Shown here: positions 12,189 through 27,024 of the stretch, piece after piece
Position numbering within the stretch: position 1 is the first letter of the stretch
Layout: every line of letters begins with the position of its first letter
Source of the DNA: a virus
Reading direction: 5' to 3' (one strand)
Length of the DNA: 27,033 nucleotides
Virus record (IMG/VR): IMGVR_UViG_3300044521_000152
Span: 1-27,033 of that record
Made by a program: the position numbers and the translations under genes
The notes under the pieces: model-generated
The model's database searches: none
The model's input: only the letters and a program-made list of their open reading frames with translations
What the model was told of the DNA's origin: nothing

Positions 12189-15100
12189 ATGGTCACGATT
12201 CGCAGTTCTAACGAAATTATTTTGAGCCTGATCGATTACTATCGATTGGTACAGCCAGATCTTGATACCAGCGTTGGAAGCGTGAGCCGTGATATTTTTA
12301 TCGAAGGATTGGCCAGCCAGATTTCCCTCCTCTACGATGAAGTCTCCGGAGTCTCCTCTCAACAATCTATGCGATTGGTTGTTGGATCCGATCTCGATAA
12401 ACTCGCCAAAAACTTCGGAATTATCCGAAAACAGGCAACGCCTTCTACGGGCGTGGCTTTGCTTACTTTCTCATCTATCAACTCTACGATCAATATCAAT
12501 CGGGGTGACATCGTTACCGCCTCTAATGGTTTCTCTTTTTCAGTAGCCGCGGGTCTTTCCGTATCTCCAGCAGCTATTAATTTTTATCGTTCTGTAGCTA
12601 GCAAGTTCCGAGATCAATTGGATATTGCGGGAATCAGCGATCAATTTGCTGTCGAAGTTACGGTAGCAGCCACCTCTTCCGGCGCCGTAGGCAACATTGG
12701 AAAGTTTTCTCTTAATCGCACCGCTATTGCGGGAGTTTCCAACGTCACTAACATTAATGCTTTTGCCGGGGGAACTGATCAAGAAAACGATACCTCCTTT
12801 AGAAATAGAGTTCTCTCCGCCTTTAGTGGATCCAGTGTTGGAACGGCATTAGGATATTTAAACGTTGCTCTCGGAACCACAGGAGTTTCGGACGCCGCCG
12901 TTATTGAGCCCGGGGATCCGCTCATGACCCGAGATGGAACGGTCGTTAGCATTGCTACTGATGGCGCTCGAACCATCCTTTCAGAGGGTTCCGGCGGCAA
13001 AGTAGATGTTATCATTTTGGGCTCCAATCTTGTCCAAAATACTGATAGCTTCATCTATCACGACAAAAGCAATAGCAACGATCCTACAAGCATTAAAAAT
13101 GATGTGGTGTTAGGGCAAATTGCAGCAGACGTTAATAAAACCATCAATCGTCGCCGAATCGATGACATCAAGAACGGACAGCTTCCCATTCAGCCCGTCG
13201 AAGAGATTCTTCAAGTAACAGGATCAATTAGTGGTTCCAATTTTCAAGCTAAAAGCGTTGATGAGTTTGGGATAGTATCGGGCAATTATGAGTTGGTCAA
13301 GGATACCGGAGTTTTTGGTGGAAGCCCCTTCGGCTTTGATACGTTTCACTGGATTAGCAACCAAGTTAGCGGGTTCAATGAAGACAGAATTAAGGGACAA
13401 TATAATGGTCAAGATGCCCTAACCTTCATTGATGTTTTGGAGATATCGCAGGCACAACAGAACGTTTCTATCACCAATGAAAATAGCACCGTAACTTTTG
13501 ATCGTTCTCTCATCAAGTTGCTTCATACACCAGCCACCAATGTTACACGCGTTTTTAACGTCAATACGGGAGAGCGATACATAGTCGTTGATCAGAACTT
13601 CGACAAAACCGGAACATTCAATACATCGGGACGAATCCAAATTTCCGGAAGCACTCTTCCTTCTCCAAGCGATACTCTACAAGTGGATTATAGCTGGATC
13701 GTTAATTACGATCAATACTCCGATTATGATGGACTCAAACATACCACTAATCCCCGAGCGGTTTCTGATAGCGTTGATTGGGGATTTTCTTCTGCAGTTC
13801 GGAATGAAAGAATCTTGTTTTCTTTGGATGCCAATGGTAACTTTTTCCAAGGAACGTCGCTCCTTCCTATTGGAACGATCATTTCTACTCAAAAGTTTTT
13901 GGAAGTAGATGGTGTCATTCAGAGGGTAACCTCGGGCGTTTTTACTAATCGGTTATCGATGGTGATATCTCATTTATCCAACACCACCACAACGGTAGAC
14001 TCTATTACTCTCAAAAATACCAACGTAGAGTTATTCAAAACGGCGCAGGGGAACGGAAGTTTTTCTAGCGCAACCGAAGTAGTTGGCATTCAAGTTCTCA
14101 ATATCACCACAATTATTCTTCCCACCGATACTGTGGCTGTTGATGGAGACAAGGTAACGACAATTCTTAATAGTACCGATGTCTTTACGTCTGTCACGAC
14201 CTCTGGAAGTAGCTCTGGAAATCAGATCACCATTCCGTCTTCATTGGTTGACACGACAGCAAACAGTATTGTTCTTCGGACAACTTACATTACCAGCATC
14301 ACCGATTTAGCATCTACGGCGATAACGACCCTACCAATGAGCCGAACTGGCAATGGATTTGCCCTTTCTGACAACAATGGATTTGGTAACTTCAGCCCGG
14401 TAAATACTGCCCATCGTGAGAATCAAGTAGTTCAAAAGAACCTGAGCAATCAGTTCTTCGTGGAAATCGGCTTATTAGTTGCTGATTTTTCGCTGGAAGC
14501 CACTCAAGTAGTTTCTGTAATCCGTTTGTCAGATGGATTAGAACTTTGGAACTCTGACAATCCGGGAACCATTACTACGGGTACCTCCGGTAATTATCAG
14601 CTCATATTCTCTGGTGTCAATACTCCGGCAACTGGGGACCGGGCTCTCGTCGTGTATTATGCAACCGACATCAAACGATTCCAGCCTTTCAGTTTTAGTA
14701 ATGCCCTTATCAAAAGCCGAACTGATTCTTTGCAGTTGGATGTTGCTACTGGTAAGTTCTACCTTCAGATCAACAAGTTTACTCCGCAAGCCAGCAATGT
14801 TCATTTCAAGGTCATTGAGCCTAACACCGACACAGCTTTATTTACTGTTACGGACGGGTATTTAACTTCTAGTGGCGATGGAACAGCCCATATCACTAGC
14901 CTCACCGTCAATTTTTCCTCCCTTGCCGATTTGACTCACAAGAAGATCAAAATCACTAATGCTACCGATCCGAATGATAGTGGCACCTACGATATCGTTT
15001 CTTATGATCTGACATCTAATGAGATTACGATTACCGATGTCATGGACAAATTGACTGCAGACCAAGTTTCTGTCATTCGCCTTCTTGATGGTCAAGAGAT

Positions 15101-16289
15101 TTGGAACTACACAGGGGTAATCAATGCTGGGTCTAATAAGATTTTGATTGCTCCTACCCCAAATATCAGCTTGAATGATAAAGTTTATGTTCTATTCTTC
15201 AACTTTAGTCCGCTCAAAAAGTCTCCAACACGTATTGTTGGGTCCGTTACGGATCAAGTATCTAATACTGGCATTATCAATATCTCTGGGACGACGTTGT
15301 CATTGGCGCAGGATGTTGTTTTCACCGCCATTAACTCAGGACTCAAGCTGAATTTGTCAGAAGCAATTCGGAAAGCTTTAGGGCTGGCAAGTACTGCTAG
15401 TATTCCAAGTAACATCAAGATAGCAAAACTGATCAAGCTGGAAAAAGTGACTACAGTGAGCGCCTCCAATGATACAGTACTAGAGGTCCTTGCCACTTAC
15501 GATACCTACAATACTATCCTCCAAAACAACCTCCTCTATGTTGGGGAGATGCTATCCGATCCTACTCTTCAGAGTCTTGAATTCATTCTTCCCGCAACCC
15601 AAAATAACATCTCTGATGTTCAGGTTCATAATCTCCCCAAATTGGGTGATAAATTGAGAGCTACCTTTTACTTCGTAATGCGCGGAGATCAAGAAGATTT
15701 GGCTTACACTCGAAACGGTACACTCTACACCAACAAGAAGTTTGCCCTCATTGATAAGGTGTTCGTTTCTAGCGGATTTAGATCTTCCCAATCCACCAAA
15801 TTTACAGCGACTTCTTTTACCCAGCCGAATCTTGGAGCCCGTTACAAAGTCACCTACGATTACTTGGCACCCAAACAGAATGAAAGAATTGTCATCCAGT
15901 ATAGTTTCAACAAACTGATCAGTGACACTACGTTCAACATCGAAAACTCCCGACCCATCAATGCTGACGTTTTAGTCCGTGCCGCTAAATTGCTTTTGCT
16001 CGACCTCACCATAAATGTCGTAATTGCTGACGAATTCAAGACGTCCACCGCTACCGTTCTTCAGAACCTACGTGATCAGTTGAATACCGCCCTAACTACA
16101 ACCAGCCTTAGCAGCATTATAGATGCGCCGACCCTTATTAACGTAGCGCAGGCGGTGCAGGGAGTTTCGCGCGCCAGAATCCTGTTCTTCAATAAAACCG
16201 GACAATCAGGCTCTGTCCAAAAAATCCAAGCCCAAGCTGATGAGTTTTTTGCCCCTAACAATATCATCATCAACACTGAAACACGCTAA
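12189..16289 (+). CDS. Baseplate J-like wedge protein (gp6/gpJ), enlarged by inserted beta modules
   Basis: A 1366-residue protein. The N-terminal 250 residues match the baseplate J family: a helical start, a GSDLDKLAKNFGIIRKQAT segment (about 67-85), the INRGDIVTASNGFSF strand, then FAGGTDQENDTSFRNRVL (192-209) followed by a GTALGYLNVAL helix. The C-terminus (about 1255-1337) has RPINADVLVRAAKLLLLDL and a helix-strand pair typical of the J C-terminal domain. T4 gp6 is 660 residues and P2 gpJ about 300, so roughly 800 central residues are extra. These hold repeated beta modules: TNVTRVFNVNTGERY near 446, two copies of SVIRLxDGxExW (776 and 961), and a module at 871-950 containing HFKVIEPNT and YDIVSYD. 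Related modules occur in the two downstream proteins. It likely forms the wedge ring that triggers sheath contraction, with the extra domains exposed. Its stop overlaps the next start (TAATG). Confidence 0.9.
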   Translation: MVTIRSSNEIILSLIDYYRLVQPDLDTSVGSVSRDIFIEGLASQISLLYDEVSGVSSQQSMRLVVGSDLDKLAKNFGIIRKQATPSTGVALLTFSSINSTININRGDIVTASNGFSFSVAAGLSVSPAAINFYRSVASKFRDQLDIAGISDQFAVEVTVAATSSGAVGNIGKFSLNRTAIAGVSNVTNINAFAGGTDQENDTSFRNRVLSAFSGSSVGTALGYLNVALGTTGVSDAAVIEPGDPLMTRDGTVVSIATDGARTILSEGSGGKVDVIILGSNLVQNTDSFIYHDKSNSNDPTSIKNDVVLGQIAADVNKTINRRRIDDIKNGQLPIQPVEEILQVTGSISGSNFQAKSVDEFGIVSGNYELVKDTGVFGGSPFGFDTFHWISNQVSGFNEDRIKGQYNGQDALTFIDVLEISQAQQNVSITNENSTVTFDRSLIKLLHTPATNVTRVFNVNTGERYIVVDQNFDKTGTFNTSGRIQISGSTLPSPSDTLQVDYSWIVNYDQYSDYDGLKHTTNPRAVSDSVDWGFSSAVRNERILFSLDANGNFFQGTSLLPIGTIISTQKFLEVDGVIQRVTSGVFTNRLSMVISHLSNTTTTVDSITLKNTNVELFKTAQGNGSFSSATEVVGIQVLNITTIILPTDTVAVDGDKVTTILNSTDVFTSVTTSGSSSGNQITIPSSLVDTTANSIVLRTTYITSITDLASTAITTLPMSRTGNGFALSDNNGFGNFSPVNTAHRENQVVQKNLSNQFFVEIGLLVADFSLEATQVVSVIRLSDGLELWNSDNPGTITTGTSGNYQLIFSGVNTPATGDRALVVYYATDIKRFQPFSFSNALIKSRTDSLQLDVATGKFYLQINKFTPQASNVHFKVIEPNTDTALFTVTDGYLTSSGDGTAHITSLTVNFSSLADLTHKKIKITNATDPNDSGTYDIVSYDLTSNEITITDVMDKLTADQVSVIRLLDGQEIWNYTGVINAGSNKILIAPTPNISLNDKVYVLFFNFSPLKKSPTRIVGSVTDQVSNTGIINISGTTLSLAQDVVFTAINSGLKLNLSEAIRKALGLASTASIPSNIKIAKLIKLEKVTTVSASNDTVLEVLATYDTYNTILQNNLLYVGEMLSDPTLQSLEFILPATQNNISDVQVHNLPKLGDKLRATFYFVMRGDQEDLAYTRNGTLYTNKKFALIDKVFVSSGFRSSQSTKFTATSFTQPNLGARYKVTYDYLAPKQNERIVIQYSFNKLISDTTFNIENSRPINADVLVRAAKLLLLDLTINVVIADEFKTSTATVLQNLRDQLNTALTTTSLSSIIDAPTLINVAQAVQGVSRARILFFNKTGQSGSVQKIQAQADEFFAPNNIIINTETR
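14511..14667 (+). repeat. Protein-level module SVIR...W, copy 1 (J-like protein)
   Basis: Residues 775-826 read VSVIRLSDGLELWN, then a Gly-rich turn, LIFSGVNTPATGDRALVVYY. The same order of motifs appears at 15066-15206 and 18779-18916. DNA similarity is limited, so the copies are old or fast-evolving. Confidence 0.6.
14799..15038 (+). repeat. Module shared with the fibre-type protein (J-like copy)
   Basis: Residues 871-950 of the J-like protein. It lies directly between the two SVIR...W copies, so the modules are arranged in alternation. The matching copy is in the fibre-type gene at 25432-25680. Confidence 0.6.
15066..15206 (+). repeat. Protein-level module SVIR...W, copy 2 (J-like protein)
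   Basis: Residues 960-1006 carry VSVIRLLDGQEIWNYTG, a Gly turn, LIAPTPNISLNDKVYVLFF. It matches copy 1 closely in the SVIRLxDGxExWN part and more loosely after it. Confidence 0.6.
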
Positions 16290-19200
16290 TGCAGAACCTA
16301 CGGATCCTCAACGCCCAAGTCATTGATAGTTCCAATATCGACATCACTTTCACTGAAAAGTTGAGCCGAGATTTGGTTACTGCCAATGTTTCTATCATTG
16401 CGGATACCCCTAACGTTCCTTCGTCCAAAGTATTAAGCGTCAAAGTATCGCAAAACATTCTGAGCCTCGTTTGTCAACCGTTGACGCCGCTTGCTACCTA
16501 CTTTTTGCAGCTTCAATCGGTGCCACTTCATCCCTTTATTTCTCTCAATGGCGATGCCAAGGTGTCGGAGGACGGTGTAACCAACAAATTTCTAATCAAC
16601 GGACCATTAGATACCGATAATCCCGTCAAAAACTTTTTGAGCAGCTTTTATAACGGCAATATCTACAAGACTGAGGATGACAATACCATTGTTAGCAAGT
16701 ATCTCAAATCGCTTGCGATTAACTTATCTCGCGCGCTGTATGATATTCGTCAAGTCAAGAATGAAAACTATCTATCGGTTGAAGTCAAAGACGAAAGAAA
16801 AGTTCGGGGACCCGGACCATTTGATAGGTTAGGAGAAGAGGGTGCCTACAAAATTGAACGAGTGGGAAGATCTCCTACTGGAGCTTCGGCGAACGCCGCA
16901 TTCGCATTTGATGCTTTTCCATCTTCCCCGGTTACTCTCCAAAAACAGACGGCCCCCGAAACACTCACAGCCACCTCCGCTGATGAAGTTGGACAATTCA
17001 ACATCAATTCTTTGATCCTCAACCTAGAACACGCTCCCGTTACAAAAGTCGAAAGTGTCGTTTTTACTCTGTCAACCGTTAACCCCATCTACGTTTACAA
17101 CATTGAAACATTGGGGTATCAGATTCTGGACGCTCGTTACGATCAAGACTTCGGATTTAGTTACCATCAGCTAACTAACAACCAAATTAGGCTCAATGAT
17201 AGCATCTTGAGCGACCCCAATTTTTCACTAGACAGCATTCTAAAAGTTGATGTCTTGTACGAATACAAGGACCAAGGTATCGTTGTTGATCCAAATACTG
17301 TCTCGGTTTATACTGTACCTGAAGCCAAAAGAGAGGTGTTGCCGCCAATCATCAATGTTTTTTCTCTTCAACACGCTCCCATTGTTAATGCTGATGGAAC
17401 TACCTCTGGTTTGGGCGGTGTTACATTTATGGATCCCAATACTAGCGTTGTTGGTGCAAAGCATCCAGCATTCCTGAGTGAGATCCCTTTTCGGTTCAAT
17501 GCATTGCCCTCTGCCCCAGGACAATATGCCATTGACTATGAGTTGGGTCAAGTTTATGTGTTTGGCGAAGACCTGTCTAATAGTGGAACTGGTCCATCCC
17601 CACCATTAGCCACTTATCTTTACAAGTTCACTTACAAACCAGAACAGGATTACGTTTTTGATCCCGATACATCAGATTTGGTTTCATTGCCCCTAGGAAC
17701 CCTGGTTGATGCACAGGGAACAATCGTTTTCAAGTACGAGCAGGTGTTGATACCCAACATCGACTATAAAGCTAACTTGCACCTAGAGATTCTTACCGAA
17801 AGGGCTGAGAACCGGCTGCTTGCTGTCAACGTTATCAAAACCAAGAATTCTCCAATTACTAATGTGTTCCGCATCTTCAATGAGACAACCGGAGAGATTT
17901 ATACGCTCAATCGTTGGAATGATGACAGGATCTATTTTAGGTTCACCAATCCTCCGCGAGTCAATAGTCAACAAGGTGAAAGAGCAACTTTTCAGATCGT
18001 TCCCAATGAGCTATTGTTTGTCAACACGACACTCATCAATGGTGGTTCGTTGAGAGTATTCAAAATTCTGCTCAACAATAACACTATCGTTGCTTCTACG
18101 GAAGACGGACTTGGTTCCGCTTTCAATAGCAGCGCTTCCTTCAGTGACAGTAAAGTTTTCATCTCCGAAAAGTGGTTCAATATAGCAGCAAGCGAATCCT
18201 CCAACATCAATAGGCTTCAAAATATTGGTGAGTACCTGGTGGATTATGTCAATGGAATCGTTTATGTAGCCGCCTCTAACACACAGAGTTTTAGCATCGG
18301 AACGACAACCTATAAGACCAATGTTATTGTCCCTATGTTTCCACATTTAGTGAGTGTTGATGATATCTACTATCGTATTAGCTCTTTGACAGCCAAAAAC
18401 AAAAGCTTTTCATACGCGTCTTTTGACGAGGGCTCTATTATTCCGGAGATTTTAGATCCTGGTATTGAATTGCTCTTGAATGGTGGAAACCCATATCAGA
18501 TACTGAATGGTATTGTTGGAGTATTCGACAGTTCGACGTTCGTGGCTGGTGTATCCAATCAAGTCAAGTTTGTTCGGGCGCTCTACGAGTATAATGATCT
18601 TCTCAATAGCACGCATCCTATCAACTTTGCTACATCAGCAGCTTCTTCTGGATTCGGCGTTACTGTATCTCCAATAAGCAAACAGGTATTTGGTAGTGTT
18701 CAATTTGACGGATCCAATTATTATGTCGCTATTGAAGAGAATGTCCCGTTCCTATCTTCCGACATTATCTACACGTTTAGCGTGATTCGCAACTCTGATG
18801 ACGCCCAACTTTGGGATGGAACTGGTACTGTTGTGCCGGGCGACTTTATCAAGTTGATATTGCCTGGTATCAATTCTCCGGCTGCCGGCGATCTGGTTAC
18901 CATCGACTACACTTTCACTATTCAGAATTTGGCTCGTGTTGCCATTGACTACAATAAGGGAGACTACTTCGTTGATTATACTTACGTAGCAGATGAGATC
19001 ATCGTTAGCTATGAATATGGGGATAACGTTCTTGATTTTCGAACCAGTCAGGTAGTTCCGGCTAACACAGAATATTTCGTTTCTTATAAGGTCGGTGCTT
19101 TGCGAGACGCCCTGCTAAAAAACTTCGGAACTCTTGTCAACATTCCAGAATTGGCTAATTTTGACGTTGATTTTGATCGGGAAAGATATCGAGACGCCCT

Positions 19201-23440: not shown

Positions 23441-23488
23441 ATGGAAACTGCAGCATTTTTTAGCATAGTTGGGACGGAAAAACCATGA
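23441..23488 (+). CDS. Possible 15-codon leader ORF overlapping the fibre-type gene start
   Basis: The frame encodes METAAFFSIVGTEKP and ends at TGA 23486-23488, overlapping the fibre-type start by ATGA. AGGGTGG (23427-23433) lies seven bases upstream of its ATG and is a better ribosome site than the one before the fibre-type gene (GGACGGAAA, about seven bases away). Translating it would bring ribosomes onto the fibre-type start. The peptide matches nothing I recognise, and the frame is too short for coding statistics. Confidence 0.3.
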   Translation: METAAFFSIVGTEKP

Positions 23489-26400
23489 CCAAAAGATCCC
23501 CGGTTTCATTTGAGCAGACTGTTTTTACCAATTCGCAAATGGTAGACGACGAAGATTTGTCCCTCGAACAAACCCATAACGACGTCATCACCGCCGATAT
23601 CATCAACAACCATATCGGTACTGGTATTCTTCCCGAAGTCTTAGTTCCCAATATTCTGTTCAACTCATCGTTAGCGTCCGGCTTCCTCGATGGAACCAAC
23701 GTCCAAACCCAATTTCAGCCCTCCGACAATAACTTCGGAAACCAACTTGAACTCACCCTAACCGGCTCCAAAGCGGGCGGTAAACGAGATGTCAAGATAG
23801 CAATCATTGGGCTCGACTTCCAAAGCAATCTCCAATACGAGACTTTTGTTTTCAAGACCAACGAAATCCAAGTCAGCAAGAAACACTTCACCAAGATTTT
23901 GCTTCTTCTATTCAATGACTTTGTCGGAGACCCAGACTTGTCCTTTAATTTAGGCGGGCAATTAGTCATTAGCGAAGCTTCTCCGATGACGCTGTCTCGG
24001 GATCCCATTATGGTTTCCCAAGATGTCCAGCCTAACCTCTTTTTCCGAGACTTCTTCGTAGATGGATTTGCTTCTCTTCAATCCCTCCTCCAAAGCGCTC
24101 TCCCCCTTTATAACGTTGATACCCTCAATATCTTTACTGCTCCCGTCGATACTCTAGTTTTACCCAAAGATGATGTCACTACTCAAATTGGGCAGAAATT
24201 TCAAGCCGTAACTAACAACATCCAAAAAATCTCTCTTTTGCTCTCCGTCAGAAACACAGAGGTGGGACACGAAACCGATCTGACCTGGAACGGAGAGCTC
24301 ATTGTCAGCGTTTATCCTCTCCAATCCAATATCGAATGCCCCACTGATATCGCCCCCAATCTCCAAATTGATTTTGCCCCCGCCAATAATCCCATCGCCC
24401 AAACTAGCATCGATTATGCTACTCTTCAAGCATCAGGCTATGTTCTTGACTCTATTCCCCAGCCCATAGACTTTATTTTCAGCAACAGCCCTCTTGCCTC
24501 TGGTAATGTTCTCACTCCAGGCAAATACTATGCGGTCACAATAAAGCGGGCGGGCTCTGCTAATAAATGCGATCTTTTGATTTCCGCTGGCAGTGATCAA
24601 ACTCCCAACTCTCGAATCACCATTTTTACAGGAAGCCTCTGGGTAGATATTCCCGAAGAAGATTTGTGGTTCCGAATTTGGACGGATGCTGCTAAGGTTT
24701 CGGATGGTCAGGCTTATGAGTCTGGGCACGGAATGATAGTGCCGAAAACCCAAGAGGATGTGATTTCTCAAGCCACGATTGATTTCTCCAAAGGAGGCAT
24801 TCAATTCACGGGCAATGACGTTTTCCGAGCCGTTGCCACTGCTGTTACAGAAGAAACCACCCCCATCCCAGATCAACGAACTGGACAGCCTGTCTTTTCA
24901 AGAAAAGAAGTCATTCCCAAAATCGATCTCCTCAATACTATAGATTTGACCAATCTGGAAAAAACGACAGATCCTCTTCTCCTTGGCGCCATTTCTGACA
25001 AGAACAGAAAGTTTTTCGATTCCATTTCTTCACTAATCATTTCCAAACTTTACAGTGCAACCATGGTCAATAATGAGTTGCTCATCCGTGTTGTAGACGA
25101 TCCAACTGATACTGGACGGTATGACACCTCGGTTATTGGATTGATCTCTAATTTGCTCAACGGAGATTTCGCCAGCGCTAAGATTATTCCCGATGCCAGC
25201 GATCCTTCTGTTTACTATCGAATTGCCAGCGCTCGGCTGTGCTCAATGATTTTAGGAGATGTAAATGGTGATGGGATTATTGATCAATCCGATCTTGATC
25301 TTCTCAATACATACATCGGTTATGATCTGACTACGGAATTACCTCTTCATACTAGTGTTGTCACGGATGGATATACGACCACCTATACCAATGGTTACAT
25401 TACTTACACTAACCCATTTAGTGATCTGTTTAGCATTCACTTTCAGTTGGTTGATCCCAATACTCATATAGTGGTTGCTGATGGATATGATGGTGTTTTG
25501 GTGGCTAATCCCGCCGACTCAAGATTGGCTCAATTCACCAGTGCCAGCGTTTCATTCAGCAATATTATTGGGTTGAGCAGTTTCAAGATCGTCCTGATCA
25601 CTCCAACCGTTGAAGCAGATTATGGTGGATTTGATATTGTGTCATTAGATACAGTTTCTGATGTTTTGACTATCCGCAAGATCTTCTTGACGGGCGATGT
25701 TTTGGCTCAAATGTTGCGCTCTGATGTTGATGGAGACTTCCACATTACTTTCAATGATGGCTATCTCCTCCAAAACTATATCGACAGACATACTCTATCA
25801 AATTCCCCGGTTAGTCCCTTTCCCTCACCAGCAACCAATCCGTTTACCAAAATTGGAGTTCCCTTCAACGTTATTCGATTGAGAGTGGAGGAGTTTATTG
25901 ATCGGGGTGATGATTATTCACCGGTTGTTTCGGGGAGATCTGGTGTTGTCCATCCATTACCCGATATTTTTGAGGGAGATGGTTATTTCGATAGCCATAA
26001 TTTTTATGCCTCTCCAGTTACCTTCAATATTCAGAAACAGCTTACTTGGGATGAATCGCTTATCGTTTCCAATGGACATACCAAGTTGGTTCCGTCCGTT
26101 TTCACGACACTGAACGGCTTTCAACAAAATAGCTGCTCTATTGAGGGAGTTCATTGCAGCACCTATCCAGCATCACCTGATTTTGACCCTGGCCGCGTAG
26201 ATTTCTTTGTCCCCAATAACCTTATTCTTGGGGCTGGCGGCGAACTCAAACGTTCTGATGATACCTTTTACAAGGTGGATTTTGAGGTTGGAACCATTAT
26301 TTTGGAGATTCCGGATGGGTTGTTTGGTTCCGAAAAAACCATCAATCTCATGGATGATTTCATCTCTGATTATACGGGACATGGAGTAACGCGCCTTGGC

Positions 26401-27024
26401 TTCCCTGCCATGCGATTTGCTGACTGTTCTTATGTGTTGGCGGACGCATTAACAAAAGATCAATTACGTTTCTCTGTATCGGTTCAGTCCTTCTCGCCAA
26501 ATACTAACGGATTATCAACAGATGGTTATGGCGGGATTATTGTTGATGGAAAGATTGGTGTTTCCATCGATCCTACAACGGCATTACTAACGCTCAACTT
26601 CACTAACCTTTTTCAAGACACCATCCTAAAAACCCTGAATACCAAGATTCAGGTTCATGTCTTTCTCAAAAAAGGCGGCTTCAATAACGTTCCTTTGTTT
26701 GTTGATTCTGTCAAAGTTCAGAACTTACTAAAACTTGTTAGCGTATTTAGTGGGGTTGTGGATGGTGGACCATCAGCTCTGGTAGATTTGGCTAATGACG
26801 TCTCCGATGTTCTTCCCATCCTTCATGGCGGAACGGGATTAGATGGTGTGGGAGCCGCCGGTACAGTTTTAGTAAGTACTGGAAGTGGATTGAGTTATCA
26901 GTTCATTTTAGCTTCTAACGCAAGCTATGCGCCAGGTGTTCCTGGAAATTGGACAGGAAGTCCACCAACCACCGTGCAACAGGCATTAGATCGTATTGCT
27001 GCCGCAATTGGACCGATCCCGTGA
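23485..27024 (+). CDS. Tail-fibre-type protein with dockerin-like calcium loops
   Basis: A 1179-residue protein, last in the block, matching the fibre (gpH) position after gpI. Residues about 30-170 are a beta-rich N-terminal domain. Residues about 330-430 contain TPGKYYAVTIKRAG and IPEEDLWFRIWTDAAKVSDG, a beta-sandwich-like part. Two dockerin/EF-type loops follow: D592-V-N594-G-D596 with D600 and D603, and D747-V-D749-G-D751 with T755 and D758. Each leads into a short helix (SDLDLLNTYIG; NDGYLLQNYI). Dockerin halves normally lie next to each other, but here about 140 residues separate them. The C-terminus has LPILHGGTGLDGVGAAGTVL (from 1110) and a TTVQQALDRIAAAIG end, patterns common in phage tail fibres. 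It likely forms an elongated trimer contacting the host or linking to other fibres, with the calcium loops stabilising the shaft. A cohesin partner is not implied. The start is supported by overlap with a short upstream frame. Confidence 0.83.
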   Translation: MTKRSPVSFEQTVFTNSQMVDDEDLSLEQTHNDVITADIINNHIGTGILPEVLVPNILFNSSLASGFLDGTNVQTQFQPSDNNFGNQLELTLTGSKAGGKRDVKIAIIGLDFQSNLQYETFVFKTNEIQVSKKHFTKILLLLFNDFVGDPDLSFNLGGQLVISEASPMTLSRDPIMVSQDVQPNLFFRDFFVDGFASLQSLLQSALPLYNVDTLNIFTAPVDTLVLPKDDVTTQIGQKFQAVTNNIQKISLLLSVRNTEVGHETDLTWNGELIVSVYPLQSNIECPTDIAPNLQIDFAPANNPIAQTSIDYATLQASGYVLDSIPQPIDFIFSNSPLASGNVLTPGKYYAVTIKRAGSANKCDLLISAGSDQTPNSRITIFTGSLWVDIPEEDLWFRIWTDAAKVSDGQAYESGHGMIVPKTQEDVISQATIDFSKGGIQFTGNDVFRAVATAVTEETTPIPDQRTGQPVFSRKEVIPKIDLLNTIDLTNLEKTTDPLLLGAISDKNRKFFDSISSLIISKLYSATMVNNELLIRVVDDPTDTGRYDTSVIGLISNLLNGDFASAKIIPDASDPSVYYRIASARLCSMILGDVNGDGIIDQSDLDLLNTYIGYDLTTELPLHTSVVTDGYTTTYTNGYITYTNPFSDLFSIHFQLVDPNTHIVVADGYDGVLVANPADSRLAQFTSASVSFSNIIGLSSFKIVLITPTVEADYGGFDIVSLDTVSDVLTIRKIFLTGDVLAQMLRSDVDGDFHITFNDGYLLQNYIDRHTLSNSPVSPFPSPATNPFTKIGVPFNVIRLRVEEFIDRGDDYSPVVSGRSGVVHPLPDIFEGDGYFDSHNFYASPVTFNIQKQLTWDESLIVSNGHTKLVPSVFTTLNGFQQNSCSIEGVHCSTYPASPDFDPGRVDFFVPNNLILGAGGELKRSDDTFYKVDFEVGTIILEIPDGLFGSEKTINLMDDFISDYTGHGVTRLGFPAMRFADCSYVLADALTKDQLRFSVSVQSFSPNTNGLSTDGYGGIIVDGKIGVSIDPTTALLTLNFTNLFQDTILKTLNTKIQVHVFLKKGGFNNVPLFVDSVKVQNLLKLVSVFSGVVDGGPSALVDLANDVSDVLPILHGGTGLDGVGAAGTVLVSTGSGLSYQFILASNASYAPGVPGNWTGSPPTTVQQALDRIAAAIGPIP
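25432..25680 (+). repeat. Module shared with the J-like protein, lying between the two calcium loops
   Basis: Residues 650-732 (SIHFQLVDPNT, VADGYDG, SASVSFSN, GGFDIVSLD, LTIRK) run in the same motif order as residues 871-950 of the J-like protein (VHFKVIEPNT, VTDGYL, SLTVNFSS, GTYDIVSYD, ITITD). Confidence 0.6.

Follow-up and report, generated by a model that had tools for sequence, protein, structure and literature searches.

The window analysed here is a virus record of 27,033 bases that holds a contractile-tail gene run, coding for structural proteins, baseplate proteins and a fibre-type protein. The fibre-type protein contains a pair of calcium-type loops, each followed by a short helix as in a dockerin, with a folded module (B) lying between the two halves. 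A homologous module is found in the baseplate J-like protein of the same gene run. The features are listed in Table 1.

Table 1. Features of the tail gene run in the window, and weak module B matches in other records
Feature	Position	Strand	Basis
Baseplate protein, 143 aa	11715-12146		
Baseplate J-like (wedge) gene, 1366 aa	12189..16289	+	PF04865 E 1.8e-23; phrog_6 E 8e-33
Module A, J-like residues 750-829	14436..14675	+	profile; missing in unsplit clade
First strand of A', J-like residues 853-862, upstream of B	14745..14774	+	model strand 856-860; alignment with empty-site relatives
Module B, J-like residues 864-955, nested in A'	14778..15053	+	alignment, hhalign, model
Rest of A', J-like residues 956-1010	15054..15218	+	A-profile match 951-1004, model positions 16-75
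Protein with LamG domain, 2378 aa	16289-23425		
A-like stretch, LamG protein residues 810-875	18716..18913	+	A-profile E 1e-8; tblastn 46% in a relative
Fibre-type tail protein gene, 1179 aa, holds split dockerin	23485..27024	+	ORF; full-length homologues
Calcium-type loop 1 DVNGDGIIDQSD, residues 592-603	25258..25293	+	Pfam Dockerin_1; D1 and D12 52/52
Helix after loop 1, residues 601-609	25285..25311	+	AlphaFold2 model
Linker hairpin, residues 613-643, length varies	25321..25413	+	alignments; model strands 624-627, 631-635
Inserted module B, residues 644-733, six strands	25414..25683	+	hhalign to J-like B; pLDDT ~94; Foldseek; missing from 19 unsplit relatives
Helix before loop 2, residues 737-746	25693..25722	+	model; alignment
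Calcium-type loop 2 DVDGDFHITFND, residues 747-758, position 6 F instead of G	25723..25758	+	D1 51/52, D12 52/52
Helix after loop 2, residues 756-766	25750..25782	+	model
Weak B match, other record	G020:C1:260792-260980		B profile
Weak B match, other record	G029:C1:49540-49701		B profile
Weak B match, other record	G015:C1:77167-77346		B profile
Weak B match, other record	G006:C1:45337-45510		B profile

The fibre-type protein has full-length homologues in 70 or more viral contigs, which are up to 481 kb long. Searches of named phages and of bacterial and archaeal genomes returned no relatives of it. A GGTG-type motif, which we take to be a feature of tail fibres, stands at its C-terminus. Many relatives (among them the fibre ORFs L003, L004, L005 and L006) have an extra C-terminal domain of about 150 residues, which is missing from the window protein and L002.

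The tail genes also share a compositional trait. No tripeptide is more enriched than DGY in the window proteins encoded between 16289 and 27024; it occurs there 14 times against about 1.3 expected, and two relatives have 19 and 15 copies, 7-8 times expectation. Elsewhere in these genomes it shows no enrichment (2 copies in six 20-kb stretches; tail regions L199, L200, L204 and L205 were compared with L201-L203 and L206-L208), nor does it in the tail regions of phage G and Tunturi_5. Since the codons used vary, the enrichment acts at the protein level. It may reflect a turn preference or a linear motif.

The initial annotation had placed the two loops within 25258-25782, which corresponds to residues 592-766 of the fibre ORF, and both are found there. 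It had called both canonical; this holds for loop 1, but loop 2 carries phenylalanine in place of glycine at position 6. It had also put the separation at about 140 residues. The wide separation is real, the exact figures being 155 residues from aspartate to aspartate and 143 between the loop ends, with no short linker.

The pattern D.[DN].[DN]......[DE] matches the fibre protein only at these two loops. Shuffled versions of the protein give 0.22 matches each, and two or more in 2.3% of shuffles, so the pattern alone is only fair evidence. Conservation across relatives is real evidence for the loops and, at the level of sequence, settles the matter. Among 52 split relatives, aspartate occupies positions 1 and 12 of loop 1 in 52/52, and the same positions of loop 2 in 51/52 and 52/52. 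Nearly all of them have D or N at positions 3 and 5, and the D/N ligands at 1, 3 and 5 together with D at 12 are present in both loops of the split and unsplit clades alike. Because the ligand residues are kept, calcium binding is probably retained in the split dockerin, perhaps with altered geometry. Position 6 of loop 2 is F, M, L or Y in 49/52 split forms and G in 19/19 unsplit ones; alignments show the glycine kept in L044, L051 and L045. Its loss in split forms may have altered calcium binding.

In the window protein, Pfam Dockerin_1 matches loop 1 and its helix (residues 591-612, model positions 2-23 of 57) at 24.6 bits, above the cut-off of 22.9 yet not over the whole domain. In split relatives the profile matches each half separately (model positions 1-24 and 13-56). 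No dockerin is among the top PDB Foldseek matches of the fibre model.

Relatives with an unsplit pair do exist. Nineteen such sequences (L007 and 18 further distinct ones) have the loops exactly 46 residues apart, with 34 residues between them, in 19/19 cases. Loop spacings across the relatives are either 46 or 136-181, with no intermediate values. The usual spacing in type I dockerins is about 34, so that the 46 of the unsplit relatives is longer. In a full-length alignment, some 1,000 residues of L007, flanks included, can be matched to the window protein. The helix at residues 737-746 has a counterpart in the unsplit relatives too (LELLRAD). The linker hairpin at 613-643 is reduced in L033-L038, L044, L051 and L057.

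The window protein resembles a type I dockerin (PF00404) in its pair of 12-residue calcium loops with a helix behind each, and its unsplit relatives match nearly the full model above cut-off. It departs from one in that 155 residues separate the loops and a folded module lies between them.

Dx[DN]xDG calcium loops are found across many folds that have no relation to one another (PMC3123361), and the two loops could therefore be independent, with no domain interrupted. Loop 2 is atypical at position 6, and the packing of the halves in the split form is a prediction. Against this, the orthologues carry both loops and the linker helix within a single full Dockerin_1 match: three unsplit relatives that were scanned score 27.9-40.4 bits, above the cut-off, over at least 53 of 57 positions. 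The dockerin matches of one unsplit relative also include the solved structure 1ohz_B, with 69 residues aligned. Independent loops are therefore an improbable account, and the loops are better read as the two halves of a dockerin.

The initial annotation had matched fibre residues 650-732 with J-like residues 871-950. The homology stands, with the approximate bounds corrected to fibre residues 644-733 and J-like residues 864-955, and fibre residues 613-643 form a separate linker hairpin. Profile-profile alignment of these segments, with profiles built from 48 and 21 relatives respectively, gave a significant match (hhalign probability 99.5%, E 5.6e-23, 34% identity). In three relatives, the J-like query retrieves the fibre insert directly (E 7.5e-9 to 5e-7). 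Together with the unsplit relatives, this match bears out the description of a dockerin-like pair interrupted by a module homologous to the J-like one; the split loop pair and the shared module are confirmed as observations.

AlphaFold models of the fibre and J-like regions (pLDDT 87 and 86) have six strands alike in order and of similar lengths. When the fibre model was compared with viral structures (BFVD) by Foldseek, only three matches reached E<=1e-3, all to proteins of uncultured Caudovirales phage: one with a dockerin domain, one J-like protein of the baseplate and one from the tail sheath. Neither model has a PDB fold match at E<=0.001. The best PDB matches for B are PilZ and protease barrels; the similarity is weak and a PilZ-barrel identity is not claimed. 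There are no Ig-family Pfam matches in the fibre or J-like protein, and B has neither an Ig fold nor an Ig family profile by Pfam or PDB matching.

Pairs of fibre B and J-like B from one genome share about as much identity (0.297) as pairs from different genomes (0.293), so no recent copying is visible, and there is no sign of gene conversion or homogenisation between the two modules of one genome. All B copies are old, and a DNA footprint of insertion is not expected to remain.

Two possible further sites of the module were noted. Residues 1350-1500 and 1720-1790 of the 2378-aa LamG protein look B-like by eye only; the B profile found no match in that protein. Weak B-profile matches (E 5e-4 to 3e-3) in several records (Table 1), within an ORF some 500 residues long, may mark a fourth home.

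The J-like copy of B likewise sits inside another module. This module, A', follows module A, and B separates its strands 1 and 2. A single-sequence search of viral contigs with this region gave no confirmed match, and the regions of relatives were obtained by searching whole records. In the unsplit clade the J-like proteins are without residues 740-1008, and so without A, A' and B. In L044 and L051, A and A' are present and B is missing, leaving an empty site, though the fibre dockerin of these two is split. In all other relatives examined, A' is split by B. The outgroup J-like proteins (phage G gp188 and Tunturi_5 gp241) are without A, A' and B, and join between the two clades. A second module shared within this tail is A, which the LamG protein has in common with the J-like protein (46% identity in a relative).

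Because L044 and L051 have a split dockerin and no J-like B, the fibre and J-like insertions happened separately, the fibre one first, provided that the root lies between the clades, as the outgroup places it. In a tree of the fibre flanking regions, split and unsplit forms are separated by one change on one branch (support 100). L044 and L051 represent the earliest split lineage; their excess length of 90-92 residues is about that of one B module. A concatenated tree (fast run) places L044, L051 and the unsplit forms together against the rest, with support 99.9.

The change could also have run the other way, from a long-form ancestor, with the unsplit clade losing both the fibre module and the J-like stretch from A through A' and B. 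With the root inferred between the two clades, the fibre tree alone leaves the direction unfixed. No outgroup with the fibre protein was found, and the direction for this protein therefore rests on standard dockerin architecture. Deletion is nevertheless quite unlikely. The outgroup J-like proteins lack the region, and excision from the fibre protein would have to restore exactly a full dockerin (53-57 Pfam positions) with a spacing of 46 in 19/19 sequences. L044 and L051 would require another exact excision, from A'. Insertion is thus the preferred reading.

A third home of B, besides the fibre and J-like proteins, came from running the B profile over 30 whole records. It lies some 20 kb upstream, in an ORF of 820-950 residues that encodes the tail sheath: phrog_279 matches at E 1.3e-13 and 1.5e-18, with the sheath core in the C-terminal part, and Pfam sheath models match below cut-off. 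The sheath carries one B in 8 unsplit-clade records and two in tandem in the 12 split-clade records read. Copy 2 is much closer than copy 1 to the fibre and J-like modules.

The tree of B modules separates sheath copy 1 from the other three homes, namely sheath copy 2, the fibre and the J-like protein (96/97). Among these three, sheath copy 2 and fibre B fall together (93/89), with J-like B next to them. The four homes need three changes, which is the minimum, one for each newly occupied home. The tree is built on about 94 columns, support for the fibre-with-sheath-2 grouping is moderate, and sheath 2 is not monophyletic. The order sheath, then fibre dockerin, then J-like protein is thus favoured by the sequences but, with alignments this short, not proven.

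The initial annotation had proposed that fibre B was copied from the J-like protein. The two modules are clearly homologous, but L044 and L051 carry the fibre insert without any J-like B, and fibre B groups with sheath copy 2. A J-like source is accordingly very improbable, since the trees favour the order from sheath to fibre to J-like protein. The earlier interpretation was right on insertion and sharing, and probably wrong on the source; calcium binding may be what lets the hairpin tolerate the insert, as it had suggested. That the dockerin instead docks to cohesin, attaching the protein to cellulosome-type partners of the host or to phage partners, would fit the family name and the loop and helix pattern, but is the least probable reading of all: no cohesin (PF00963) was found in 19 large phage records at E<=1, and it would be unusual for the two binding helices to be parted by an insert of 90 residues.

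The insertion model that we favour is the following, and as a whole we consider it likely. The fibre protein of this contractile-tailed phage family would originally have had a compact calcium domain of dockerin fold. In the ancestor of one clade, a beta module of about 90 residues would have been inserted in frame between the two loop and helix halves; its donor was presumably the second B copy of the tail sheath or something like it, to which the inserted module is most closely related. Later, a like module would have been inserted between strands 1 and 2 of A' in the J-like protein. Each home of B would have been colonised once, followed by vertical inheritance.

The functional part of the insertion model is more tentative, and we hold it at somewhat less than even. 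The dockerin halves would still clasp each other through calcium and act as an internal clamp, not as a cohesin-docking module. B would be held outward as a surface or lattice-contact module, the role proposed for the extra beta domains on other tail sheaths.

Domain insertion and promiscuous tail modules are both already known in kind. Dockerins with natural insertions occur in CttA (family 4a) and ScaA of Ruminococcus flavefaciens (PMC4266597, PMC5934362). As in the window, the insertion is into a dockerin; however, those inserts are short (12-13 residues inside calcium loop 2, with two further inserts in CttA) and are not a separate domain shared with other proteins. In the literature searched, which lay mostly outside subscription journals, no domain-size insertion between dockerin halves is described. 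A dockerin domain-containing protein of an uncultured Caudovirales phage, A0A6J5RS54, is 60% identical to the window protein (TM 0.92 over the query). It is known from database annotation only, and neither the split nor the shared module is described in the literature searched.

Tail sheaths carry extra beta domains, among them promiscuous Ig-like ones, at a distance from the tube. Phages are believed to exchange these domains, with proposed roles in adhesion or in stabilising or cementing the virion (PMC9230969). B resembles them as an extra beta domain on a sheath. It differs in having no significant PDB match to an Ig fold, in spreading within one virion and nesting in other domains, and in the existence of empty-site relatives.

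A bolder extension would make B a virion-wide mobile domain, carried into sheath, wedge and fibre by transposing in frame, more than once, among the genes of the tail cluster, and nested at least twice in domains that still fold, so that three tail parts share one binding surface. We regard this as rather doubtful.

Most inferences of domain insertion have only one end state to go on. Here, occupied and empty sites survive for two insertions of one module in one virion, so that direction and order can be tested. A predicted calcium hairpin that accepts a whole domain is a possible natural display scaffold. Nesting of a single module is one way in which large phages can enlarge their tail proteins.
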